Shown here: positions 41,272-44,862 of the stretch, piece by piece
How the letters are laid out: every line of letters starts with the position of its first letter
Position numbering within the stretch: the first letter of the stretch is position 1
Assembly (NCBI GenBank): GCA_009838515.1
Contig: VXRL01000040.1
Location: 243,749-307,748 of the forward strand
DNA: 64,000 nt
Reading direction: 5' to 3'
Source of the DNA: Terriglobia bacterium
GTDB taxonomy: Bacteria > Acidobacteriota > Terriglobia > Bryobacterales > UBA6623
Translations under genes and position numbers: made by a program
The notes under the pieces: generated by a model
What the model saw: the letters and a program-made list of their open reading frames with translations, nothing else
The model's database searches: none
What the model was told of the DNA's origin: nothing

Positions 41272-43035
41272 TCAACTTTCGGCAGCTCGAACCGGGACCT
41301 TCACATGGACGGTCACGACATCGATGTCGTGGTATTGCTGGTGCCGAACAGAAGACGCGAGGTGTCGAAGCAGCCGGAGCGAAGCCTCGTGCTCTATCGA
41401 AGCGTCGTCGCCCAAATCTCCGAGCACGACCAGCTGGTCCTGAATATTGTCGTCGCTAGGCGCTGCAGTGAATTCCAAGACTGCTCCGACATCGTCCCGG
41501 TAAGCAACCAAGCGCAGGCGACGTGGCCGGGAGTCCCTCGCTGCGTCATCTTCCGGTGGGACGAGGTTCAGCAAGCACTCTTCGCTGACAGCCTCCAAAC
41601 GCTCGGCCATCTCGGAATGCCAGCCCTCGCGCTCCGCGAACGAGCGGAGAAACTCCCTGATCTTGGGCAGGGCCGACAGCTCGAGCGTGGATGCCATCCT
41701 AAGCCTGCGAGATTTCGTCAACTCTACGAACAGGGTCATCAGGATGGCTGACAGCCCGCCCGTCGTCATGGCATTGGAGAACGTCCCGCCGGCGAACGCG
41801 GCAGCCTGTTCCGGGAAGATCATGTCGATTTCGAAACCCAGTCCGACCCAGAAGGCAATGCCGACGATCAGTCCCTTGCGGTATTCCAGACCGTCTTGGA
41901 CGACCACCTTGATGCCCACGAGGAAGAGCATCGCCATGAGCACACCGAGGTACCCTCCGACGACCGGACCGGGTATCGCCAGCACGGCGGCGAGCGCTTT
42001 AGGAAAGAACGCCAGAATGACGAACATCGCCCCGGTGGCGATTCCCACGCTGCGCGCCGCGACCCCTGTGAGCTCGGCCAGAGCCGCGCTCACCGAGTAG
42101 CCCGTGTTGGGCACGGTGCCTGCGAGGCCACATAGCAGGTTGCTGATCCCATCGACGTTTACCGCCCCCTGTACGGCGCGAAAGTCCACCGCTCGTTTCC
42201 GTCGCCACGAGACACTTTGAACCGCCACGCTGCTGCTGATCGAACGAAGAGTCACGATCAGCGTTACCAGCAAGAATGGAGGAAGGAGCGACCAGAAGGC
42301 CGGGCCGAAGTCCAGATCGATTCCTGGCCACGCTATCTCGGGAAGTCCTATCCACCGGGCGTCGTCGATGCGTCCGAAGTCGTACAGGCCGAATAGAGCG
42401 CCTACGACCGAGCCCGCGACCACGCCGATGACGGGTGCCCACAGGCGGAGCGCACCGCTGGCCTTGAGCGCGACCACGACGATAGCCAGCACGGTGGCGA
42501 TCGCGCACAACGGACCCACGTGTGCCGGACTGCCGTCGGGAACGCGATCCAGCATTCCGAGCACCGAAGGCATCGCCGTGACCGGAACCAGCATGAGAAC
42601 CGCTCCCGAGACGGTCGGCGTCAGGATTCGTCGAAAGAGCGCGAGCCGGGCGGAGAGCAGGAACTGGAACAGCGAGGCAACGACGACCAGAGTCACGAGC
42701 AGCGCGGCCCCGCCACTCTTGATCGCATCAATGGAGGGCCCGATGAACGCCGTTGAGCTACTCATGATGATGACGTAACCGGCGCCGATCCGCCCAATGC
42801 GGCGCGCTTGCAACATCGTGGCGGCCCCGCAGATCGCAACCGCCGCGAAGACCGCCCACGACAAATAGGCCTCGCTCGCCCCGGCAGCGCGCATTACAAC
42901 CGTAGGGATCAGGATCGGGATGGAAACGATAAGGGCTGTGAGCTGAAGACCAAGCCCGAGCGCGAGGGGAAGCGAAATGTTGTCGTCAGCCTGGTACCGA
43001 AGTCCGCGCTCGTGCGTGGGATCTTTCCTAGTCAT
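41272..43035 (-). CDS. NCS2-type xanthine/uracil permease with C-terminal RsbW-like domain
   Basis: 587 aa. Residues about 20-445 are a 12-14 helix NCS2 (nucleobase:cation symporter 2) permease: the helix 1 LGLGLQLTALIVSIPIL, the GTVPNTGYSVSAAL loop typical of the family, and a long hydrophobic end. Residues 450-587 are cytoplasmic and resemble the anti-sigma/HATPase_c_2 fold: LSALPKIREFLRSFAERE, an N-box-like EECLLN (E486, N490), and a C-terminal helix-strand pair (EASLRLLRHLASSV). The glycine-rich ATP lid motifs are not obvious, so nucleotide binding is doubtful. The tail suggests the transporter is regulated or signals. Confidence 0.8.
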   Translation of the reverse strand: MTRKDPTHERGLRYQADDNISLPLALGLGLQLTALIVSIPILIPTVVMRAAGASEAYLSWAVFAAVAICGAATMLQARRIGRIGAGYVIIMSSSTAFIGPSIDAIKSGGAALLVTLVVVASLFQFLLSARLALFRRILTPTVSGAVLMLVPVTAMPSVLGMLDRVPDGSPAHVGPLCAIATVLAIVVVALKASGALRLWAPVIGVVAGSVVGALFGLYDFGRIDDARWIGLPEIAWPGIDLDFGPAFWSLLPPFLLVTLIVTLRSISSSVAVQSVSWRRKRAVDFRAVQGAVNVDGISNLLCGLAGTVPNTGYSVSAALAELTGVAARSVGIATGAMFVILAFFPKALAAVLAIPGPVVGGYLGVLMAMLFLVGIKVVVQDGLEYRKGLIVGIAFWVGLGFEIDMIFPEQAAAFAGGTFSNAMTTGGLSAILMTLFVELTKSRRLRMASTLELSALPKIREFLRSFAEREGWHSEMAERLEAVSEECLLNLVPPEDDAARDSRPRRLRLVAYRDDVGAVLEFTAAPSDDNIQDQLVVLGDLGDDASIEHEASLRLLRHLASSVRHQQYHDIDVVTVHVKVPVRAAES

Positions 43036-43297
43036 GCCGAGATGAACCCTCTCAGGCGCCGTCGATGCGGACTACGGCGCGAGACTCCATCTATTGTCTA
43101 CTCGCCTAGCTTCCATGCCAGGAGACACGGCTCATGCGGCTCTTCTATCCTCTTGGGCAGCGGGTGACAGCGCGAGTGAATCATTGCTGCAGGGCGGTGA
43201 GCCAAGAGCTGAGTGCACGGATCGCAGGCTTACAATCACGGGTAGAATCGTATGATTGCGGTGGTGTCTCCGCCGATTGTCCCGAAAAGAAATCCCT

Positions 43298-44134
43298 ATG
43301 CGTTTATGGGCGCTGTCTGACTTGCATGTGTCCCATCCGGAGAACCAGGCGGCCCTCGAAGGCTTTCCGGCCTTTCCAGACGACTGGCTGATCTTGGCAG
43401 GGGACGTTACCACCGGCACGCATCGACTTGACTGGTGTTTTCGACACTTGGCTGCCAAGTTCCGCCAAGTCGTCTGGGTTCCCGGAAACCACGAACTCTG
43501 GACGAGTCCCGATACGGCTTCCGGGCTTGGCGGCGTCGCTCTTTACGATCGGCTCGTCGAAATCGCTCGCCTCCACGACATTCTCACGCCAGAGGATCCT
43601 TACCCGGTGGTTGAACATCGCAGCGGACCGGTTCTGATCGTGCCGCTGTTTCTGCTCTACGACTACAGTTTTCGGCCCCGGCACGTCCAGCGAGACGAAG
43701 TAGTTCGGTGGGCCCGCGAAGGCGGCTCTGTTTGCTCTGACGAACTAGTCCTGCGGCCCGACCCGTTTCCGGATCGCGAATCGTGGTGCGCTGCCCGCTG
43801 CGAGGACGCTGCCGCTCGGCTCGCGTCCTATCCGGCGGATCTTCCCAAGGTCCTGATCAATCACTTCCCGCTAGAAGAAGAACACGCCGTGCTGCCGCGG
43901 ATCCCTCGGTTCACGCCATGGTGCGGGACCCGCCGAACGCAGGGTTGGCACCGCCACTTCAACGCGTGTGCGGTAGTGTATGGCCACTTGCACATCCGGG
44001 GGACCCAGTGGCTTGACGGTGTGCCGTTCCAGGAGGTGTCCCTGGGATATCCCCACCAGTGGGACCGCCGACGAGGGGTTGGCGCGTACCTGCGGGAGGT
44101 GGCCATAGCACCCCAGGGTGGGACCCGCCGATGA
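43298..44134 (+). CDS. Calcineurin-like metallophosphoesterase, PptH-like
   Basis: 278 aa from ATG 43298 (MRLWALSDLHVSH). All metallophosphoesterase motifs are present: DLH near residue 8, LAGDV, VPGNHELW, INHFPLEEEH and VYGHLHIRG. Its stop overlaps the ATG of the 4'-phosphopantetheinyl transferase (ATGA). In mycobacteria the gene next to pptT encodes PptH, a phosphoesterase that removes 4'-phosphopantetheine from carrier proteins. Gene order and family suggest the same antagonist role here, but substrate specificity is inferred from context. Confidence 0.75.
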   Translation: MRLWALSDLHVSHPENQAALEGFPAFPDDWLILAGDVTTGTHRLDWCFRHLAAKFRQVVWVPGNHELWTSPDTASGLGGVALYDRLVEIARLHDILTPEDPYPVVEHRSGPVLIVPLFLLYDYSFRPRHVQRDEVVRWAREGGSVCSDELVLRPDPFPDRESWCAARCEDAAARLASYPADLPKVLINHFPLEEEHAVLPRIPRFTPWCGTRRTQGWHRHFNACAVVYGHLHIRGTQWLDGVPFQEVSLGYPHQWDRRRGVGAYLREVAIAPQGGTRR

Positions 44135-44862
44135 CCGCCCGCGACGCTTGGTGGAGTCCGTGGCGGGAGGCCACGGACTCGCTCATCCTGCATGTCGACC
44201 TGCGGCCTGACCCAGACCGCGAAGAACAGGCTCTTGCCTTGCTGGACGAACGCGAGCAGGAGCGCTGGAAGCAGTTCGCGAGCAAGGACGCTCGGCGTCG
44301 GTACACGCTTTGCCGCGCGGCGCTGAGGGTCAACCTCTGTGACCGTCTGGGGTGTGCGAACCGGGAACTGTCCTTCGGCTATCTCGAGCACGGCAAGCCG
44401 TTTGCAAAGGTCAATGGAGCGTCTTCAGGCGAGAGTTTCAATTTGAGCCACAGCGGCCAGCACGGACTGATCGGATTCTCGAGCCGGGACGACCTTGGCG
44501 TGGATCTGGAGGTGCGCGCTCCGGGCAGGGATTTTGACGGTATCGGGAGCAGCGTTTACGGCCCGCAGGAACGGCGCGCGCTGTCCGCAGCCAGCGGAGA
44601 CGAGAAAGTGGATGTCTTCTACCGATTCTGGAGCCTGAAGGAGGCGCTCATCAAGGCCTTGGGCACGGGATTCTCGCTGAATCCATCCCGTTTCGAGGTA
44701 CCTAGGCCGATGATCGAGGGCGAGCGCTCCGGCATATTCCGTTTCCCCCACCTGCCGTCGGAGCCGTTCTGGCTGGAGGATCTGGGAGAGTCCCGGTTCG
44801 CTGCCGCGAGCGCCTGCCGTCTGACAGCAGGAGATGCTGGTCCGAACGGAACACTCGGCTAG
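44131..44862 (+). CDS. 4'-phosphopantetheinyl transferase, Sfp-type
   Basis: 243 aa from ATG 44131 (MTARDAWWSPWREA), overlapping the phosphoesterase stop. It activates acyl or peptidyl carrier proteins by transfer of phosphopantetheine from CoA. Key motifs: FNLSHSGQHGLIGFS, the metal-binding LGVDLEV, and FWSLKEALIKALGTGFS (the WxxKEAxxK block). The length and the N-terminal RRRYTLCRAALRVNL fit the Sfp group rather than AcpS. No carrier protein or polyketide/peptide synthase gene is in the window. Confidence 0.88.
   Translation: MTARDAWWSPWREATDSLILHVDLRPDPDREEQALALLDEREQERWKQFASKDARRRYTLCRAALRVNLCDRLGCANRELSFGYLEHGKPFAKVNGASSGESFNLSHSGQHGLIGFSSRDDLGVDLEVRAPGRDFDGIGSSVYGPQERRALSAASGDEKVDVFYRFWSLKEALIKALGTGFSLNPSRFEVPRPMIEGERSGIFRFPHLPSEPFWLEDLGESRFAAASACRLTAGDAGPNGTLG

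Follow-up and report, generated by a model that had tools for sequence, protein, structure and literature searches.

A putative PptH-family hydrolase gene overlapping an Sfp-type phosphopantetheinyl transferase gene in an acidobacterial genome

In the genome of a Terriglobia bacterium (Acidobacteriota), the gene for a putative phosphopantetheinyl hydrolase of the PptH family overlaps the gene for an Sfp-type phosphopantetheinyl transferase, and we consider it likely that the two products load and strip the carrier proteins of fatty acid and polyketide synthesis, as opposing enzymes of a two-gene unit. The window analyzed here, G000:C23:243749–307748, is a stretch of 64,000 nucleotides, and both genes lie on its forward strand. 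The phosphoesterase gene (P0001, 278 aa) extends from the ATG at 43298 to a TGA ending at 44134, and the transferase gene (P0002, 243 aa) extends from the ATG at 44131 to a TAG ending at 44862. The initial annotation described a complete calcineurin-like phosphoesterase that overlaps a transferase through ATGA, and our analysis supports this description: both frames are complete and open, and their Pfam domains match. The bases ATGA at 44131–44134 (+), common to both genes, form the stop of the first and the start of the second, which suggests from the sequence that the two are translationally coupled. A TTG at 43256 is an alternative start that would give a phosphoesterase of 292 aa, but the ATG at 43298 was preferred because the conserved N-terminus of the family begins there.

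The same gene order and adjacency were found in all eight genomes of the window genus that have the phosphoesterase (11 genus genomes were examined), including one, G006, in which the phosphoesterase is truncated by the end of the contig. The dN/dS ratios against four congeners, 0.07–0.11 for the phosphoesterase and 0.09–0.21 for the transferase, show purifying selection on both. Because the order is kept in 8/8 genomes and both genes are under such selection, the adjacency is not a product of chance. Upstream of the pair is a divergent nucleobase permease gene (Xan_ur_permease by Pfam; 41272–43035, minus strand), with pyruvate carboxylase beyond it, and downstream is a DUF1587/1592/1588/1585 protein; no polyketide synthase occurs among the pair's nearest neighbors in the window. 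The permease has about 185 extra C-terminal residues with no Pfam match, and its relatives adjoin the pair at one other locus (L141) and lie near it at another (L065). It probably stands outside the pair's mechanism.

The phosphoesterase matched Metallophos in Pfam (1.8e-13, residues 1–233), and Metallophos_2 was the only other family matched. When its sequence was compared with PDB chains by phmmer, PptH of Mycobacterium tuberculosis (Rv2795c; 6unc) was matched at 1.6e-76 over residues 3–273, and the next chain at 0.074; identity to PptH is 47% over the full length. The predicted fold (pLDDT 89.8, pTM 0.90) gave the same result, in that a fold search with this model returned 6unc at Z 34.7 (rmsd 2.9 over 271 residues) and the next structure at Z 17.1, with MPPED2, GpdQ, Rv0805 and purple acid phosphatases among the matches at Z 14–17. 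Thus, the grouping of the phosphoesterase with PptH, away from other nucleotidases and phosphodiesterases, is supported by both the PDB sequence search and the predicted fold. The metal-binding motifs are D8-x-H10, D36, N64-H65, H189 and H230-x-H232, and Cys209 lies within WCGT. D36, N64, H65, H189, C209, H230 and H232 are invariant in 105 of 105 family rows, and D8 and H10 are conserved in 104, the remaining row having a gap there; the family-specific motifs WCGT, YDYSF and GYP, away from the metal site, are conserved as well.

PptH and the window protein share the fold, all metal ligands, Cys209 (C225 in M. tuberculosis PptH) and His230 (H246), the mapping of the latter including a 3-residue offset between the 313-residue chain and its construct 1–310. 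We take the C225 mutant of the M. tuberculosis enzyme, altered at the position equivalent to C209, to be inactive. Passages of PMC8557913 describe the use of a mutant altered at C225 and state that M. tuberculosis has no functional PptH when H246 is changed to N. The pptH gene also adjoins a phosphopantetheinyl transferase gene, as the window gene does; the differences are that the window protein, from Acidobacteriota, sits in a different clade of the family and that its partner belongs to another transferase subfamily.

This second difference was evident from the transferase itself. It matched ACPS (2.5e-15) and AASDHPPT_N (2.6e-08) in Pfam and had no match to 4PPT_N, and its motifs are GKP, FNLSHS, GVDLE and WSLKEALIK, the last being of the W/KEA form, with no F/KES motif in the protein. 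As a two-lobed member of the ACPS superfamily with GVD-x-E and W-x-x-KEA, it is an Sfp-type (group II, W/KEA) enzyme. Its best PDB match was Sfp of Bacillus subtilis (8e-13), and its best NCBIfam match was HetI (1.9e-27, far below the HetI cut-off); we know of no PptH-family partner for Sfp or HetI. The class names W/KEA and F/KES are taken from passages of PMC3909215. A Streptomyces partner of a PptH gene, in contrast, matched 4PPT_N and PptT chains (about 1e-58), and F/KES was found in nine Streptomyces transferase rows. PptT (Rv2794c) and Streptomyces SCO6673 resemble the window transferase in being encoded by group II transferase genes that adjoin a PptH-family gene, and SCO6673 even lies downstream of the phosphoesterase gene and overlaps it, as in the window; they differ in being F/KES enzymes, whereas the window enzyme is W/KEA and has AASDHPPT_N instead of 4PPT_N. 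A PptT-like identity for the window transferase was ruled out by AASDHPPT_N, W/KEA and the best match to Sfp, since PptT-type enzymes have 4PPT_N and F/KES. The two genes had been called a PptH/PptT-like pair; this name fits the phosphoesterase, and the pair is conserved, but it does not fit the transferase. Because the transferase subfamilies differ, mycobacteria and Streptomyces have in common with the window only the hydrolase half of the pair.

We analyzed the distribution of PptH relatives in even samples of four phyla, named according to the labels of the sample centers, and found them in 23 of 396 genomes of Acidobacteriota, 27 of 396 of Actinomycetota, 5 of 398 of Pseudomonadota and 68 of 193 of Myxococcota. 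A scan of named genomes gave at least 564 confirmed relatives among the at least 595 pattern matches listed, and the record labels of the best 80 of these relatives include Acidobacteria, Alpha- and Gammaproteobacteria, Myxococcota, Chloroflexota, Pirellulales, Gemmatimonadetes, Latescibacterota, Actinobacteria and others. PptH was described in a passage of PMC8557913 as apparently limited to mycobacteria, a limit that is contradicted at the level of sequence. A transferase was found within 500 bp of the PptH gene at 17 of 20 loci in Acidobacteriota, 26 of 30 in Actinomycetota, 3 of 5 in Pseudomonadota and 38 of the 80 best named-genome loci, but at none of 30 loci in Myxococcota (L224–L253, the 30 best from the 68 genomes). 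Since these 30 loci and 42 of the 80 best named-genome loci are unlinked, PptH does not need a linked transferase.

Among 100 loci there were 55 pairs, in which the transferase was downstream on the same strand (22), upstream on the same strand (21) or convergent (12); because the genes converge in 12 pairs, operon coupling is not general. Two loci with negative pair distances, arising from domain boundaries, were counted as paired (L134 in this set and L190 in the 500-bp counts). At the 45 loci with no close transferase, we scanned 86 neighboring frames with Pfam (at most one per side, chosen by a codon-position heuristic) and considered the 25 commonest of the families matched, among which a lone transferase would not show. 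In one gammaproteobacterial MAG (L065, 5001–7878), the PptH gene and the transferase are about 1.4 kb apart, and the two frames tested between them had no Pfam match. The actinobacterial partners scored as PptT-type and all others as Sfp-type, a scoring checked by Pfam on ten frames, one of which had no match. On the PptH tree, the arrangement changed at least 19 times, with the unlinked state counted. The distances of paired proteins co-vary (r 0.89 in 47 Sfp-type pairs, reached by 0 of 9999 shuffles), an effect to which common descent of the organisms is expected to contribute. The F/KES pairs of Streptomyces, L152 and L057 were left out of this test because of their type or fragmentary rows.

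The pair has apparently moved between lineages. A 19-row clade (SH-aLRT 98) on the PptH tree unites the window PptH with sequences from other f23-family Acidobacteriota and from MAGs labeled Gemmatimonadetes, Latescibacterota, Dehalococcoidia and Proteobacteria, and a single clade for the genus's seven PptH sequences was disfavored (p-AU 0.022, on a more careful tree that has long rows). The PptH tree and one further tree behind the movement between lineages come from quick searches that left many forks open; L060, L061 and L140, which repeat the window or genomes of its genus, were omitted from the trees, and L094, L104 and L110 from alignment A3. The genes that flank the pair in the window were absent from the 5-kb flanks of eight MAG loci (L062–L069), except for the permease relative in L065, and three of these loci (L062, L068 and L069) have the phosphoesterase with no transferase. 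Because the flanks are not shared, the unit in common is the pair and not the region. The cross-phylum placements rest on the labels of single MAGs.

A search with PF01648 found one match in the window genome (G000), namely the paired transferase, whereas M. tuberculosis and Streptomyces also carry AcpS according to passages of PMC8557913 and PMC3909215. The window genome had 11 carrier-domain matches, of which one lies in a frame of 90 aa and several lie in frames of great length, and because no other transferase was found there, the paired one must serve every carrier protein. The paired transferase is also the only one in G001, G003, G006 and G010. In five of the 11 genus genomes (G002, G004, G007, G008 and G009; loci among L254–L264), a different Sfp-type transferase gene is convergent with accC, which was identified by TIGR00514 above its cut-off. 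No transferase was found within the 1.5-kb flanks of accC in G000, G001, G003, G005, G006 and G010, and these six genomes are exactly those with the window-type pair. Because the six are close kin, the accC-linked transferase was probably lost in a single event. G004 and G007 have both the pair and the accC-linked transferase, and G005 has an additional enzyme of the 4PPT_N type (L044). Among 34 PptH-bearing genomes searched (that of L119 was left out), PF01648 matched once in 13 and not at all in one.

G002 was the sole genus member with a transferase identified as AcpS (L042, TIGR00516); with 87% completeness and 5% contamination in this genome, the AcpS may be foreign. G002 and G008 lack PptH but encode a relative (47%) of the paired transferase (L041 and L047), which in G002 has a polyketide-synthase-like frame close by.

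We also analyzed AcpH (PF04336), an HD-type phosphopantetheine hydrolase that catalyzes an analogous reaction but has no homology to PptH, as stated in a passage of PMC8557913; the Pfam scan of the window phosphoesterase gave no PF04336 match. Full-length AcpH is present in 8 of the 11 genus genomes, and PF04336 had no match in G004 and G010. In the window genome, the AcpH gene (L171, G000:C25, near 59286) lacks about 110 internal codons, a deletion that keeps the frame and joins residues 12–53 to residues 163–205 of the G005 frame, within flanks that are syntenic with those of G005 and 90–92% identical. PptH and full-length AcpH occur together in five genomes (G001, G003, G005, G006 and G007), PptH without full-length AcpH in three (G000, G004 and G010), AcpH without PptH in three (G002, G008 and G009), and neither in 0 of 11, a distribution that was not significant (Fisher p 0.34). 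The coexistence in five genomes rules out PptH as a simple replacement of AcpH.

The opposing activities predicted for the two proteins are well supported by homology. The transferase would transfer 4'-phosphopantetheine from CoA to a serine of carrier proteins, and the phosphoesterase, with its binuclear metal center, would hydrolyze the phosphodiester to give the apo-carrier protein and phosphopantetheine. That carrier proteins are its substrate is what we infer from its relationship to PptH. It might instead use the PptH fold on free CoA, dephospho-CoA, a nucleotide or a lipid phosphodiester, so that adjacency would reflect shared CoA metabolism, as would suit a fold that serves many unrelated substrates (the matches at Z 14–17) and the absence of a linked transferase at about half of the best named-genome loci. 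Against this are the full-length identity to PptH, which no other PDB chain approaches, the retention of WCGT, YDYSF and GYP outside the metal site, and the repeated pairing with two transferase subfamilies, and we regard another substrate as rather improbable. Similarly improbable to us is salvage, in which the hydrolase would recover phosphopantetheine for CoA synthesis at pantothenate shortage and the transferase would spend it again: the expected product, 4'-phosphopantetheine, is indeed a CoA precursor, but in the passages of PMC8557913 drawn on here PptH of M. tuberculosis has no detected role in CoA salvage. The trees and the differing flanks do show movement as a block, which would suit two genes that were transferred jointly once and stayed adjacent with no functional coupling; one event would hardly account for the repeated changes of arrangement and for W/KEA and F/KES transferases having been paired separately, and we consider such hitch-hiking very unlikely.

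As to why opposing enzymes would be paired, we favor repair, in which the hydrolase would reset carrier proteins to which a broad-specificity transferase had attached a wrong or acylated phosphopantetheine arm, so that the holo/apo ratio would stay adjustable. Sfp tends toward broad specificity. Repair is favored because the partners found belong to group II, whose members tend to be broad in specificity, as passages of PMC3909215 state for SCO6673-like enzymes. A tuning of carrier-protein activation would be compatible with the same evidence. The pair could also be a portable cassette for attachment and stripping that takes over carrier-protein activation, an idea we regard as rather improbable. 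The hydrolase, once present, would make carrier proteins need an efficient partner transferase; the resident transferase would become dispensable and be lost, and the cell would come to rely on the cassette, as cells do on an addiction module. The six genomes with no accC-linked transferase, G004 and G007 with both, and the pairs on unrelated flanks in MAGs labeled as other phyla would then be stages of this process.

The initial annotation pointed to the pair as one outside mycobacteria. Its occurrence there is real and conserved, but less new than implied: a 2014 paper (PMC3909215) reported that a Streptomyces transferase gene overlaps a calcineurin-like phosphoesterase gene, and the passages concerned make no link to PptH. 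In the open-license literature, we found no published statement linking PptH to pairs outside mycobacteria, and no published account of the wide distribution of PptH, of Sfp-type pairs or of the loss of a resident transferase with the pair. Our results correct the printed view of PptH as limited to mycobacteria and offer a functional guess for the Streptomyces gene, which PMC3909215 described in 2014 as having no known function. According to passages of PMC8557913, the loss of PptH from M. tuberculosis caused no defect in mice, and the reason that cells keep an enzyme stripping an essential prosthetic group is unknown. With the PptH family spread over many phyla and occurring repeatedly beside two kinds of transferase, and with a PptH relative that in one lineage adjoins the sole transferase detected in a genome, the question of stripping becomes testable outside a pathogen.
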